Source: Streptococcus infantarius subsp. infantarius ATCC BAA-102 (lineage in GTDB: Bacteria; Bacillota; Bacilli; Lactobacillales; Streptococcaceae). Taken from it: DNA of 64,000 bases. Where the stretch lies: positions 80,902 to 144,901 of the forward strand of contig NZ_DS572691.1 of NCBI RefSeq assembly GCF_000154985.1, given 5' to 3'. The translations under genes were made by a program, and so were the position numbers. The notes beneath the pieces are model-generated. The model was given only the letters and a program-made list of their open reading frames with translations, had not been told where the DNA came from and did not search any database. Every line of letters starts with the position of its first letter. Position 1 is the stretch's first letter. Shown in pieces: positions 22,003 to 30,592 of this stretch.

Positions 22003-22044
22003 GTTAAAATCTGTTAACTTCTTTAAAATTTGTTATACTAAAGC

Positions 22045-22128
22045 TGACATAAAAACACATCACAGTTGGTAGTCTGTGAGTACAACATGTATCAGTAACC
22101 TTCCCCTTCCGAGGTCGTCCATTGTCAA
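22045..22128 (+). ncRNA. yjdF-motif (azaaromatic-sensing) riboswitch
   Basis: A TATACT box (22034-22039) leads into a leader with TGACA (22045-22049) pairing to TGTCA (22123-22127). It has a CACAG/CTGTG hairpin (22061-22076 area), AGTAACC, and GAGGTCGTC near the 3' side, as in the yjdF RNA motif. It directly precedes a gene for a YjdF family protein, the usual partner. CCTTCCCC (22099-22106) can also pair with the AAGGAGGGG ribosome binding site (22136-22144), which suggests translational control. Confidence 0.75.
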
Positions 22129-22149
22129 TTTTTTTAAGGAGGGGCTGTT

Positions 22150-22578
22150 ATGAAAATGACAGTATATTTTGATGGGGCATTTTGGTCGGCTTTGATTGAA
22201 TTTACGGATTCGAAGAAACGTTACAAGGCTTTTCGTTACGTGTTCGGTAAAGAGCCAAAGGATGATGATATTCTAAACTTTATTGATGTTTCTTTGGGAA
22301 AATGGCTGCGCAGGTATGATAAGGTTGAAGTAAGCTCTGAGTTTTCAGCGCCAGCTATTTCACAGAAAAAACGAAATCCAAAACGAGTGCAACGTGATAT
22401 CAATAAGGCAAAGTATAAGCCTGTGGTGTCAACGAAAGCTCAGCTTGCTATGCAGGAAGTGCGTGAGGAAGTCAAGAAAGCTCAAAAGTCTAAGCAAAAG
22501 GTGAAACGTGAGCTAGAAAAGGAACGAAAATACTTGCTTAGGCAAGAAAAGCGTCATCAGAAAAAGCGGGGACATTGA
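22150..22578 (+). CDS. yjdF: YjdF family protein (DUF2992)
   Basis: 142 residues starting MKMTVYFDGAFWSALIEFTD after AAGGAGGGG. The N-terminal half is a small beta-rich domain typical of YjdF. The C-terminal half is a highly basic, Lys/Gln-rich helix (KAQKSKQKVKRELEKERKY). The biochemical function is unknown; its association with a riboswitch that binds planar azaaromatic compounds suggests a role in coping with toxic or signalling heterocycles. Monocistronic. Confidence 0.85.
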   Translation: MKMTVYFDGAFWSALIEFTDSKKRYKAFRYVFGKEPKDDDILNFIDVSLGKWLRRYDKVEVSSEFSAPAISQKKRNPKRVQRDINKAKYKPVVSTKAQLAMQEVREEVKKAQKSKQKVKRELEKERKYLLRQEKRHQKKRGH

Positions 22579-26155: not shown

Positions 26156-27304
26156 TTAATCAATTTTCTTAAGATATTCTGCCAGCATCTTCTTTTGTGG
26201 TGTAGCCATGGGATAATCTTGAAGTTGGTCTAGTGAGACCCATCGGAGTTCTTTGTCTTTGGAAACTTCATCTGAAGTTACCATGCCTTCAATGAGCTCA
26301 ATAGTCCATTTTTGGTGGCTAAAGGTGTGCTTGACTGGGCTAAATTCTCGCTTAGTCCAATCAGGAGTGACTTGGTAATCCTTTTCAAAAAGTGCTTTTT
26401 GTGAGACGGTTTTAAGAGAAGCAGTATTTTTTTCAAATAAATCTAGCTGCTGTCCGATAAAGTCTGTCTCCACGATTGGAAATGACCAGAAGCCGCCAAG
26501 CAAGCGCCCATCAAGATTTTTTTCTAATAAGAAATCACCGCCGTTATTTCGAATGACAAAAGCTTGAAGCTGTAGCGGCTTGGGCTTTTTCTTAGGCAGT
26601 TTAATGGGGTATTTGTCATAAGTCCCGTGTAAATAAGCTGCACTGAAAAAGCGAATCGGAGACTCATCTGGACGAGGATTCTTGGCTGATTCGATATCAG
26701 TCCCCAGATCCATCAGTGCTTGGTTAAAATCCCCAGGACGTTCTGGATCAATTAAGATTTCCATAATTGCCTGGAAAATCTTGCGATTTTTGGGTTCACC
26801 AATATCATAATTGACTTCAAAAAGGCGCGCCATGACGCGCATAACATTCCCATCAACAGCAGGTTCAGCAAGTCCAAAAGCAATACTAGAAATAGCTCCA
26901 GCAGTGTAAGGACCAATACCTTTTAAAGAAAGAATATCCTTGTGATTATCTGGAAAAACACCATCAAATTTTACCATGATTTCTTGCGCAGCCTTTTGCA
27001 TGTTGCGCACGCGAGAGTAGTAACCAAGCCCTTCCCAAGCTTTTAGCAATTTATCCTCAGGAGCATTGGCTAAATCTTCAATCGTCGGGAACCATTTTAA
27101 AAAGCGTTCGTAATAAGGAATTACCGTCACCACTTGCGTCTGTTGCAGCATGATTTCAGAAATCCAGATAAAATAAGGATTCTTAGTTCTGCGCCAAGGT
27201 AGGTCGCGTTTTTCATTATCATACCAATTGAGCAGGGTACGGCGAAAAGAAGCAATCTTTTCATCGTCCCACATCTCAATCCCATAATCAGTTAAATTAA
27301 TCAT
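26156..27304 (-). CDS. mutY: A/G-specific adenine glycosylase MutY lacking the iron-sulfur cluster
   Basis: 382 residues. It removes adenine mispaired with 8-oxoguanine. The catalytic Glu is in WISEIMLQQTQV, the helix-hairpin-helix is LSLKGIGPYTAGAI, and the catalytic Asp is in AVDGNVMRVMAR. The C-terminal NUDIX-like 8-oxoG recognition domain spans about 235-380 (LLGGFWSFPIVE). The segment that normally carries the four [4Fe-4S] cysteines reads IESAKNPRPDESPIRFFSAA with no Cys, so this is a clusterless MutY as reported for some lactic acid bacteria. Monocistronic on the minus strand. Confidence 0.93.
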   Translation of the reverse strand: MINLTDYGIEMWDDEKIASFRRTLLNWYDNEKRDLPWRRTKNPYFIWISEIMLQQTQVVTVIPYYERFLKWFPTIEDLANAPEDKLLKAWEGLGYYSRVRNMQKAAQEIMVKFDGVFPDNHKDILSLKGIGPYTAGAISSIAFGLAEPAVDGNVMRVMARLFEVNYDIGEPKNRKIFQAIMEILIDPERPGDFNQALMDLGTDIESAKNPRPDESPIRFFSAAYLHGTYDKYPIKLPKKKPKPLQLQAFVIRNNGGDFLLEKNLDGRLLGGFWSFPIVETDFIGQQLDLFEKNTASLKTVSQKALFEKDYQVTPDWTKREFSPVKHTFSHQKWTIELIEGMVTSDEVSKDKELRWVSLDQLQDYPMATPQKKMLAEYLKKID

Positions 27305-27383: not shown

Positions 27384-27413
27384 TTGACAAAAGGTAAGCG
27401 GTTACATTATAAT
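27384..27413 (+). promoter_or_regulatory. Strong promoter with a cre site filling its spacer, upstream of the micro-ORF array
   Basis: TTGACA (27384-27389), 18-bp spacer, TATAAT (27408-27413). AGGTAAGCGGTTACAT (27392-27407) in the spacer matches the cre consensus WTGNAARCGNWWWCAW at every position but the second, and also has a GTAA-N4-TTAC dyad. CcpA bound here would block RNA polymerase, so the array is predicted to be repressed on glucose. Confidence 0.75.
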
Positions 27414-27466: not shown

Positions 27467-27526
27467 ATGATGAAACCACATGTCGCCCGGTATAAAAATG
27501 GTGATAAAGTCTCTAGTCGGAGTTAA
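27467..27526 (+). CDS. Micro-ORF 1 of the YKNGD peptide array
   Basis: 19 codons, MMKPHVARYKNGDKVSSRS, preceded by AAGGAGGT at 27449-27456. It carries the shared ARYKNGD core, here followed by a six-residue basic/Ser tail. Codons of the core are CGG TAT AAA AAT GGT GAT. It is the first member after the cre-containing promoter. Function unknown; translation is inferred from the ribosome binding site and from the recurrence of the core. Confidence 0.65.
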   Translation: MMKPHVARYKNGDKVSSRS

Positions 27527-27564
27527 GTAGGCACAGTTAACTTTACGTTATGGAGGTGGCGCTT

Positions 27565-27606
27565 ATGTTGAAATTAAACTTAGGACGCTATAAAAATGGT
27601 GATTAG
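27565..27606 (+). CDS. Micro-ORF 2 of the YKNGD peptide array
   Basis: 13 codons, MLKLNLGRYKNGD, ending exactly at the motif. TGGAGGTGG at 27551-27559 and TTATG resemble the start region of the other members. Core codons CGC TAT AAA AAT GGT GAT. An in-frame ATG at 27550 overlaps the ribosome binding site and is not favoured. Confidence 0.68.
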   Translation: MLKLNLGRYKNGD

Positions 27607-27685
27607 TCACTTTGATTAGCCATAAAGATTTATACCTCAAATCTCAAAAAAATTTGTAACAAAAGAAACATCGGAGGAACGTCTT

Positions 27686-27727
27686 ATGTTGATGATGAAT
27701 GTAGGTTGTTACAAAAATGGAGACTAA
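27686..27727 (+). CDS. Micro-ORF 3 of the YKNGD peptide array
   Basis: 13 codons, MLMMNVGCYKNGD, after CGGAGGAAC. Arg of the core is replaced by Cys (TGT), a single-base change from CGT. Core codons TGT TAC AAA AAT GGA GAC differ at most third positions from members 1 and 2 while the protein motif is kept. Confidence 0.65.
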   Translation: MLMMNVGCYKNGD

Positions 27728-27750
27728 CAACTAGTTGAATTTAGGTCAAT

Positions 27751-27836
27751 GAAGGAGTGATGTCACATTTTAGATGAAGATATTAATTGGAAGTGAACGA
27801 TTAGAAATAGCTGGTGCAAGAAATAATACCGGTTGA
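27751..27836 (+). other. Possible atypical or degenerate unit in the peptide array
   Basis: GAAGGAGTGATG (27751-27762) looks like another ribosome binding site with start. The ATG at 27760 opens MSHFR only; the ATG at 27774 opens a 20-codon frame MKILIGSERLEIAGARNNTG with no YKNGD. A related GGAGTGAT signal recurs at 28137. It could be an unrelated leader peptide or a decayed member. Confidence 0.35.
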
Positions 27837-27917
27837 TCTTGTTGCTAGTAACAGTAGTAATCGAAAGGGCTTCTAATCATATTGCTTCCATGTTTGAAAA
27901 AAGCTTTTAATTTTTTA

Positions 27918-28031
27918 ATGAAAGTTGTGATAGATGTGAAAGCAATCAATGTAGGCCGTTACAAAAATGGAGACTCAAAAAAGATATGGCGACGAGTCAG
28001 TCGCCCTATCAAAAAAACAGAAAAAATTTGA
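27918..28031 (+). CDS. Micro-ORF 4 of the YKNGD peptide array, long form
   Basis: 37 codons from ATG 27918 (GTG 27927 is an alternative). MKVVIDVKAINVGRYKNGD is followed by an 18-residue strongly basic tail (SKKIWRRVSRPIKKTEKI). Core codons CGT TAC AAA AAT GGA GAC. The ribosome binding site is weaker than in the other members. The tail may be the result of a lost stop codon, since other members end at or shortly after GD. Confidence 0.6.
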   Translation: MKVVIDVKAINVGRYKNGDSKKIWRRVSRPIKKTEKI

Positions 28032-28077
28032 TTATTATCGTTGTTATGTGAGTATTTTCAATTAATGGAGGTATCTT

Positions 28078-28131
28078 ATGAACGTAGCAAGATATAAAAA
28101 TGGTGATACTTTAGCTAATTGCATAAAATAG
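28078..28131 (+). CDS. Micro-ORF 5 of the YKNGD peptide array
   Basis: 17 codons, MNVARYKNGDTLANCIK, after ATGGAGGT at 28065-28072. Core codons AGA TAT AAA AAT GGT GAT, using a different Arg codon family from the other copies. The shortest N-terminal part of the set (three residues before the core Arg). Confidence 0.65.
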   Translation: MNVARYKNGDTLANCIK

Positions 28132-28133
28132 CT

Positions 28134-28154
28134 AAAGGAGTGATACCAATGTAA
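28134..28154 (+). other. Start-stop element (ATG TAA) with a full ribosome binding site
   Basis: AAAGGAGTGATACCAATGTAA: an AAAGGAG site at correct spacing from an ATG (28149) immediately followed by TAA. Either a decayed array member or a ribosome-loading start-stop signal. Confidence 0.4.
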
Positions 28155-28192
28155 AAAAGTAGTGACAAAAAACTCATGGAGGTATATGTACA

Positions 28193-28249
28193 ATGCTGAA
28201 AATGAATTTAAATCGCTATAAAAACGGAGATAATAATCTAACAGACTAA
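28193..28249 (+). CDS. Micro-ORF 6 of the YKNGD peptide array
   Basis: 18 codons, MLKMNLNRYKNGDNNLTD, after TGGAGGTA at 28178-28185. Core codons CGC TAT AAA AAC GGA GAT. The N-terminal half resembles member 2 (MLKLNLG). Last member before the terminator at 28297-28330. Confidence 0.66.
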   Translation: MLKMNLNRYKNGDNNLTD

Positions 28250-28296
28250 CTCCTTATGAGAATGGTATGTTAGATAACATACGAAAAAATTTTTTT

Positions 28297-28330
28297 GAAG
28301 CTGAGATAAAAATTCTCGGCTTCTTTTTTA
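28297..28330 (+). terminator. Intrinsic terminator of the micro-ORF array
   Basis: GAAGC-T-GAGA / TCTC-G-GCTTC stem (28297-28306 with 28314-28323) and TTTTTT. It separates the array from the coiled-coil gene and argues against a coding start at 28267. Confidence 0.85.
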
Positions 28331-28433
28331 TGGCTTTAAAATTAAAGAATTGCCATTATCGAAAAATCAATGAAAAAACTTTAGAAAATCTACAGAAAAT
28401 CGTTGAGAGAAAAAAAGATTACAATAAAGTTAA

Positions 28434-29372: not shown

Positions 29373-30250
29373 ATGAGAAATTTTTTTAGACGAAAAGATT
29401 TAATCAAGAATCATAAAAAACTCGCTACTTTCCTTGCCGTTATAGTAGCTCTGGTGACAGCTTATCTTTTGATTTTACCAGCTATCACTCTTGATAATAA
29501 GACTGCTTTGCAAGATCCTGGTATAGAAGTTGAACAAAGTAGTCAGTCGCCGCCATCACTACCGGCACCACAGGATAATCAGTTAGGATCTGCAACAGAA
29601 AGTTCCTCAGTTGATACGTCAAATAGCGGTGCTACACAAGCAGCAAGTGATGAGCCTGATTTGATCACACAAGCGACAACCTTGACAGCACAAAATCAAG
29701 ATTACACGATTAAAGCTGATGTTGATGAAAAGGCACAGTTGCCTAAGGATACGACATTGACCGTCAAGGAAATCAAAAATGACGATGCTGCTTATCAAGC
29801 GAATTATGAAAAAGTACAAAATTCTCTAGTAGGAAAGAACATCGAAAGTGTTCTTCTCTACGATATTTCTTTTGAATCAAATGGTCAAAAGGTTGAACCA
29901 AAAGCTGACGTTAAGGTGACAATCACACCGAAAGAAGCTGTGAATGCCAAAGATAACTTTGATGTTTTGCATTTTCCTGATGATGGTTCACAAGAAAATA
30001 TTTCGCAAAAAGATGTCAAAGAAATCGATCATAAGATTACATCAGTTTCTTTTGATAATAGTCAATTTTCAGCTTATGCCTTGGTAACATCAAGCAATCC
30101 TTCTGAGTCAAAAGCAAATCTTAATAAAGTTGGTGGTCCGAGATCAACAACTACTCATAATGTGACCTTCAAGTACACTGATAATGCAGGTGTTGAACAT
30201 GAAATGGCAACCGCACAAATTGTCGATGGAGGAATAATTTCAGTCTTCCC
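29373..30250 (+). pseudogene. Pilin-like surface protein, truncated by a deletion
   Basis: Begins MRNFFRRKDLIKNHKKLATF with one membrane-spanning export segment ending LLILPAITLD, a hallmark of large pilus-type surface proteins. A Ser/Pro/Gln-rich linker (residues 50-95) and about 170 residues of beta-sandwich-like sequence follow. It lacks the remaining domains and the LPxTG sorting signal: after TAQIVDGGIISV the frame enters sortase-gene sequence and stops at 30266. The protein cannot be wall-anchored and is probably non-functional, although the start and ribosome binding region (GGGAAGGAGAG) are intact. Confidence 0.8.
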
Positions 30251-30592
30251 AATCAAGATTATCTGACTTTAGTGACATGTACACCTTACGGGATAAATAC
30301 CCAACGTCTACTGGTACGCGGGCACCGCATTCCAAATGCTGATGGTGAAGCTAAGACCACTTCCGATGCCATGCAGCTCAATGCGTTATATATTGCACCG
30401 TTTATCGGTATTCCAATCTGCCTTGTTATTGTTATCTATATCTTTGTTACAACAAGTAGCAGGTACCTCAAACGTCATGGTGACCGAGTTGGTAAATACC
30501 TCAGTCAAAAGGGACTTAAACGACCACAAATGAACTCTAAAAACTACCAAGAAACGATTAATCAATTAAAAATAATTTTTAAGGATGATTAA
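30250..30592 (+). pseudogene. Class C sortase, 3' remnant
   Basis: The frame reads PNQDYLTLVTCTPYGINTQR, with the TLxTC catalytic Cys, then LLVRGHRIP with the conserved Arg, then a C-terminal membrane helix (LYIAPFIGIPICLVIVIYIFV) and a basic tail. All of this is typical of pilin-polymerising SrtC. The N-terminal two thirds, including the catalytic His, are gone. The breakpoint with the surface protein gene lies at about 30235-30255. An internal ATG (30272) lies after the catalytic Cys, so no active sortase can be made. Confidence 0.88.

Follow-up and report, generated by a model that had tools for sequence, protein, structure and literature searches.

RYKNGD micro-ORFs of Streptococcus and other Firmicutes as a candidate family of leader peptides acting through the ribosomes that read them

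The array of six micro-ORFs that lies between the divergent mutY and a small coiled-coil gene in a 64-kb stretch of Streptococcus infantarius subsp. infantarius DNA (hereafter, the window) belongs to a family with the consensus M-x3-[ND]-x2-RYKNGD and a peptide of about 13 amino acids. Judging from comparative sequence analysis, RYKNGD looks like an undescribed leader-peptide family that would act through the ribosome reading it, and we put the probability that its members are translated, cis-acting leaders of the attenuation kind at roughly 0.55. The free tail of the peptide, the peak of RNA structure behind the core, and the single copies found before genes of exported or membrane proteins point to leaders acting during their own synthesis. 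A mostly fixed distance from the start codon, a free tail, selection on the peptide, and structure within reach of the ribosome are traits of nascent-peptide attenuation leaders.

The leader peptides known so far serve, for the most part, a single gene family each, for example genes of resistance, of amino-acid metabolism or of secretion. RYKNGD precedes many unrelated genes of exported or membrane proteins in distant Firmicutes, several times in some genomes, and forms tandem arrays in streptococci. If RYKNGD stalls ribosomes, it would constitute a portable regulatory module. Whole regulons may be unannotated because such ORFs are too short for the usual gene finders.

The micro-ORF array and selection on its peptide

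On re-reading the sequence, we recovered the six plus-strand ORFs at 27467-28249 in full, with the motifs and the variation at synonymous codon positions that the initial annotation described. The pattern TAYAARAAYGGNGAY matches six times in the window, each time on the plus strand and within this span, while 100 dinucleotide shuffles of the window gave a mean of 0.01 matches and a maximum of 1. These counts, together with the core pN/pS values given below, led us to reject chance or a DNA repeat as the origin of the array. The Shine-Dalgarno (SD) sequences were also described correctly, with GGAGG at normal spacing in 5/6 micro-ORFs, but the length of 37 codons assigned to ORF4 is probably too great. 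The ATG at 27918 lacks an SD, and the GTG at 27936 puts seven residues ahead of the core; because this equals the usual spacing of the family, a GTG start and a length of 31 codons are more likely. The cysteine of copy 3 looks like a change specific to the window, since arginine occupies this position in all six aligned relatives. Counterparts of ORF4 are decayed in L090 and carry one core change in L033. The window is akin to S. equinus and shares 92.4% identity with strain Sb05 along 7.3 kb.

Table 1. Positions of the array, its flanking gene and its putative regulatory elements within the window
Feature	Positions	Strand	Basis or remark
mutY, divergent neighbour upstream of the array	26156..27304	-	Pfam HhH-GPD + NUDIX_4
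Putative sigma70 promoter TTGACA-18-TATAAT of the array	27384..27413	+	Direct reading; layout common to most streptococcal arrays
cre-like site GGTAAGCGGTTACA in the promoter spacer	27393..27406	+	1 mismatch to TGWAANCGNTNWCA
Micro-ORF 1 MMKPHVARYKNGDKVSSRS	27467..27526	+	ORF reading
Micro-ORF 2 MLKLNLGRYKNGD	27565..27606	+	ORF reading
Micro-ORF 3 MLMMNVGCYKNGD, GCYKNGD	27686..27727	+	R-to-C in the window alone among 7 aligned
Micro-ORF 4 MKAINVGRYKNGDSKKIWRRVSRPIKKTEKI	27936..28031	+	Probable GTG start
Hairpin GATATGGCGAC...GTCGCCCTATC, 8 nt past the core of ORF4	27983..28010	+	z -5.4
Micro-ORF 5 MNVARYKNGDTLANCIK	28078..28131	+	ORF reading
Covarying hairpin directly after the ORF5 D codon	28108..28138	+	3' arm covers AAGG of the following SD; z -3.5
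SD + start-stop element GGAGTGATACCAATGTAA	28137..28154	+	Start-stop in 16/22 elements
Micro-ORF 6 MLKMNLNRYKNGDNNLTD	28193..28249	+	ORF reading
Anti-SD-like element CTCCTTATGA that follows the last copy	28250..28259	+	Near the array end in 21/35 arrays
Predicted intrinsic terminator of the array	28295..28333	+	dG -15.6

Codon comparisons indicate that the core is under amino-acid selection and that the tail is free. Among 196 distinct copies, arginine is encoded by AGG, AGA, CGG, CGC, CGT and CGA, and alternative codons are also used at the other core residues; exactly seven residues precede the core in 153 of these copies, and 0-24 residues follow it. For the copies with seven residues before the core (98 streptococcal and 55 others), core pN/pS is 0.033 and 0.038, respectively, with synonymous differences near saturation. 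The corresponding values are 0.87 and 0.90 for the tail, and 0.59 and 0.84 for the residues before the core. The low core values are partly favoured by the fact that the copies were found by their motif. Since such sampling lowers core pN, we also aligned the window, copy by copy, to six relatives: 12/208 core codon comparisons are non-synonymous versus 51/196 for the tail. Of these 12 differences, six are the R-to-C change of the window and four belong to one decayed copy. The earlier claim that selection acts on the translated product is supported by these values.

The motif was also said to belong to no named family, which agrees with our searches: Pfam, NCBIfam and PHROGs gave no match above cut-off for the seven members of at least 20 aa, shorter ones being unscannable. 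The array has no Rfam match at gathering score (the best E, 0.027, belongs to a model of a small nucleolar RNA and falls well short of its cut-off), and no known arrest motif was recognised in the RYKNGD peptide. Searches of the main text of open-licence PMC papers, for the motif and for related themes, brought up no description of it among the papers listed; there, YKNGD appears in four unrelated papers and RYKNGD in none. Large microbiome small-protein surveys may list RYKNGD as an unnamed cluster.

Spread, promoters and neighbours of the streptococcal arrays

A pattern encoding RYKNGD matched in 26/117 related genomes, of which 15 had more than one matching place; it should be noted that single matches mean little, because a reversed control pattern matched 20/117 genomes, once each. 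Arrays in Streptococcus hold 2-8 copies. The 29 stretches around pattern matches contained 14 arrays of 2-6 copies, 13 of which lie beside mutY (12 arrays) or have rpsF-ssb-rpsR at most 6 kb downstream (9 arrays), with both features in 8; these neighbours were recognised by eye, except for mutY of the window (Pfam). Scanning named genomes with a pattern that included SD, start codon and spacing yielded 54 stretches, 35 from Streptococcus and 19 from other Firmicutes. A search of streptococcal genomes with a profile, coupled with inspection of neighbours, had been suggested at the outset. Our profile A1 matched 72/197 Streptococcus genomes at E <= 0.1 and 44 at E <= 0.001, with up to 8 matches per genome. 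Matches were found in 5/398 Bacilli genomes at E <= 0.001 (one outside Streptococcus), in 16/195 genomes from the family to which the Erysipelotrichaceae genome G625 (source of L097) belongs, and in 38/130 from that of the Anaerococcus genome G626 (source of L098). A plasmid search with the array as query gave no match.

The promoter region of the arrays is conserved. A cre-like site with at most two mismatches to TGWAANCGNTNWCA, which we take to be the cre consensus, lies within 110 nt upstream of 35/37 arrays, against 2.95 expected from shuffles, and in 32/37 the distance from its start to the -10 hexamer is 15 nt. The 37 are streptococcal arrays of at least two copies and include close relatives, such as L219 and L220; in the collation of upstream sequences that showed the promoter layout, arrays sharing their first copy were merged, whereby L034 dropped out. 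This conservation backs the hint of glucose-dependent expression in the initial annotation. Outside Streptococcus, cre-like sites at the same threshold are weakly enriched (22/68 vs 7.15 expected). A terminator follows within 260 nt of 29/35 streptococcal arrays (the 37 minus two at contig ends) vs 15/140 shuffles. With its own promoter and a following terminator, the window array looks like a separate transcript, and streptococcal arrays have no obvious target gene within the same transcript.

These features raise the question of a stand-alone regulatory RNA, in which CTCCTTATGA, the start-stop elements and the hairpins would form the functional structure and the micro-ORFs would merely load ribosomes. 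The conserved non-coding elements, promoter and terminator would suit such an RNA. Selection on the peptide, with arginine specified through both AGR and CGN, would not, nor would the single copies that also exist ahead of exported or membrane protein genes, and we consider this reading very improbable.

Several minor features of the streptococcal loci were noted. A conserved stretch resembling GTAGGCA...ACTTTACA lies behind the first micro-ORF in many arrays (e.g., window positions 27527-27547). L067 and L087 each have, ahead of what is recognised as copy 1, an SD-led copy of the motif with ATA in place of the start codon, which would be an unusual start or else a sign of decay. L047, L050 and L217 carry a lone MLKMNMSRYKNGD micro-ORF in a long intergenic stretch of similar sequence, located 0.9-1 kb upstream of a PTS-like gene in L047 and L217 (identified by eye).

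The neighbours also bear on the suggestion that the array encodes RiPP-like, signalling or immunity peptides, which we do not uphold. When ORFs around the 14 arrays were read by eye, no maturase or exporter was conserved and only mutY and rpsF-ssb-rpsR recurred, and a RiPP precursor was rejected on this ground. The free tail, the RNA structure peaking behind the core, and single copies before exported-protein genes elsewhere likewise speak against a RiPP or signalling role. We share the doubt of the initial annotation about an SHP- or ComS-type pheromone: the core is polar, and no receptor gene was seen at the mutY-rpsF arrays. The Rgg/ComR type was rejected for the same reasons; RRNPP-type neighbours were noted just at L046, L048, L049 and L052. 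In streptococcal L046 the motif adjoins what is presumably an RRNPP-type regulator and a Phr-like ORF. In L048, L049 and L052, decayed RYKNGD copies lie between a lactococcin 972-type gene and quorum-sensing genes that we assume to be TprA/PhrA-like.

Downstream genes and RNA structure behind the core

Outside Streptococcus, copies are mostly single and stand ahead of exported or membrane protein genes. We retained 71 distinct non-streptococcal copies (SD score >=4, core at residue 3-13, duplicates removed); the counts leave out degenerate copies, namely those of L048, L049 and L052, copy 1 of L067 and of L087, and the YSNGD copies of L036 and L112. An SD-led ORF follows in the same orientation within 200 nt in 58/71 cases, with a median gap of 57 nt, a layout that the streptococcal arrays do not generally show. 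A hydrophobic N-terminus, indicating a signal peptide or membrane segment, is encoded by 55/58 of these next genes vs 86/260 control ORFs (p 2.5e-19), where next genes had to encode at least 30 aa and possess an SD, and controls came from the same loci, encoded at least 80 aa and were not required to have an SD. The Erysipelotrichaceae genome G625 alone has 11 matches, most of which precede various genes for exported proteins or small membrane proteins.

In a scan of ten next-gene proteins, one passed the Pfam cut-off as a lactococcin 972 bacteriocin, another is weakly similar to it, and the remaining proteins have no match above cut-off. A general lactococcin 972 leader was rejected as an explanation, because RYKNGD occurs at 4/45 lactococcin 972 loci examined, a subset of the matches beyond which further ones were listed; RYKNGD is thus not part of the lactococcin 972 system in general. 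Some copies do precede lactococcin 972-type genes, which brings them close to the TprA/PhrA and lactococcin 972-type loci in the available excerpts of two reports (PMC6753895, PMC11796350). A phage family was also rejected, as the one match in the viral_contigs scan is a copy of a Peptoniphilus-type cassette. In this cassette, seen at L081, L105 and L114 in genomes of Peptoniphilus type and on a single viral contig, an XRE-type regulator, an RYKNGD leader and an exported protein occur together beside phage tail or tape-measure genes, as recognised by eye; the regulator is cut short in L081.

RNA structure is concentrated directly behind the core. For 36-nt folding segments starting at the core end, mean z is -1.16 in 138 streptococcal copies and -0.85 in 67 others, vs -0.08 and -0.09 when segments start 12 nt further on. 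In both sets the means are lowest for segments that start at the core end or no more than 6 nt from it, and they are near zero 12-18 nt beyond; 45-nt segments agree on the position of the peak. Weaker structure elsewhere was seen in the streptococcal set, with z of -0.44 at 18 nt before the core end and -0.34 at +30 (36-nt segments), and -0.45 at +40 (45-nt segments). A clear post-core hairpin is present in 19/67 non-streptococcal sites. An intrinsic terminator is predicted between the core and the next gene in 9/69 non-streptococcal sites vs 7/345 shuffles, and 8/9 of these terminators start 0-14 nt behind the core.

In the window, the post-core hairpin is not significant in four of the six copies, the exceptions being ORF4 and ORF5. 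The arms of the ORF4 hairpin differ in L033 and L090 in a manner that looks compensatory by eye. The hairpin behind ORF5 represents a recurrent streptococcal element, in which a hairpin directly behind the D codon is followed by an SD and then often by a start-stop pair. The pair is ATG-TAA in 14 elements, GTG-TAA in one (L227) and ATG-TAG in one (L063); the other 6 of the 22 have ATGCC. Changes in these hairpins affect both arms (A-U/U-A, A-U/G-U/G-C). The summed pairing score over 23 elements (21 of the 22 in the start-stop set, with the near-duplicate L220 omitted, and two more) is 167, vs a mean of 144 and a maximum of 165 in 200 arm-swaps; scores are positive in 19/23 elements and 0 or less in 4/23. 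Correspondence between GGN in the core and a downstream TCNCC, with 12 matching and 1 mismatching among 134 streptococcal copies and neither among 52 others, is suggestive only.

A different reading takes the peptide for a free product that works in trans, whether as a signal, intracellular or exported, or as a helper of the exported protein encoded on the same message, with arrays raising the dose. Selection at the peptide level, arrays whose own transcript offers no obvious target gene, and the motif beside the presumed RRNPP-type regulator and Phr-like ORF of L046, with decayed copies in a similar setting at L048, L049 and L052, are all consistent with it. Yet several observations would not be expected of such a peptide: tails of 0-24 residues are free, RNA structure peaks immediately past the core, neither exporter nor maturase was seen to be conserved around the 14 arrays, and several dispersed copies precede different genes in one genome. 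In our opinion, action in trans is unlikely.

Proposed mechanism and comparison with known systems

In the cis-acting leader model that we favour, a ribosome would initiate at the strong SD and make about 13 residues, and the nascent peptide would pause or stall it at the end of [ND]xxRYKNGD. The held ribosome would cover the RNA just downstream and keep the hairpin open, and the hairpin would form once the ribosome moved on. Where this hairpin is a putative terminator, as in some operons, pausing would let transcription run on into the gene of the exported protein; certain streptococcal copies would have it cover the SD of the start-stop element. The streptococcal arrays would be stand-alone transcripts of 2-8 leaders behind a cre-like promoter. 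Translation itself, stalling, the condition sensed, the sign of regulation and the targets of the arrays are the parts of this scheme that we infer.

Several observations count against the model. The simplest version, in which masking of the leader would free the SD of the next gene, was not supported: over 55 sites the change was -0.009, compared with +0.042 for shuffles, a difference contrary to the one expected (p 0.01). Strong post-core hairpins are found in just two of the six window copies, and outside Streptococcus most sites lack a clear terminator and most lack a clear post-core hairpin, as the counts above indicate. The poorly pairing elements, the weaker structure elsewhere in the streptococcal set, and the want of an obvious array target and of a recognised arrest motif weigh in the same direction. 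Some copies also decay, such as the ORF4 counterparts of L090 and L033.

For copies with no terminator, message stabilisation is an alternative. Leaders of erm genes and SD-type stabilisers in Bacillus protect the message from 5' exonuclease; by analogy, the RYKNGD message could be shielded by a ribosome sitting on its short, strong-SD ORF close to the 5' end, with hairpins adding protection. This reading would account for the strong SD and for the promoter-like -10 hexamers seen by eye close upstream of some copies, and it needs neither a terminator nor an SD switch, which are absent at most sites. A conserved peptide, however, is not required unless the peptide holds the ribosome, and terminators directly behind the core are left unexplained; we regard a stabilising role of this kind as quite unlikely.

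The closest known counterpart of the proposed leaders is the streptococcal MsrDL, for which the available part of the source describes a stalled ribosome that obstructs a Rho-independent terminator (PMC10314930). Like MsrDL, RYKNGD is a short SD-led ORF ahead of a gene, and in terminator-bearing copies a held ribosome would obstruct the terminator directly downstream in the same way (PMC10314930, in the part available). The obstruction model would thus fit these copies and would not explain the many with no terminator. Unlike what is available on MsrDL, no resistance gene was seen downstream of RYKNGD, most sites have no terminator, the core is conserved over a longer stretch, the tail is free, and tandem arrays occur. 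For Erm-type leaders we assume the same likeness and the same differences. A further parallel is offered by uORFC-6-1, uORFC-8-2, uORFC-13-1 and odc1, short ORFs beside RNA structure and before a regulated gene (PMC8632094, available excerpts). In those excerpts they differ from RYKNGD in their genes and taxa, and are not described as tandem.

A bolder extension of the leader model, which we offer tentatively and would not ourselves expect to hold, is that RYKNGD might define a new class of arrest peptide tying exported competition proteins to the state of the ribosome, common to Bacilli, Erysipelotrichaceae and the family of Peptoniphilus and Anaerococcus. Each streptococcal array might then be a string of arrest sites that stands alone under catabolite regulation and, with no target gene of its own, serves to titrate or report this state.

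Two further observations concern the window outside the array. Behind a signal peptidase gene, a 297-aa ORF and then a 106-aa ORF occupy 29373-30592 on the plus strand, where the relatives L031 and L033 have a single ORF of 1646 and 1641 aa, respectively; this surface-protein gene looks broken in the window. Finally, an azaaromatic (yjdF) riboswitch at 22039-22138 lies directly 5' of a DUF2992 gene, a known pairing; the two together occupy 22039-22578 on the plus strand.
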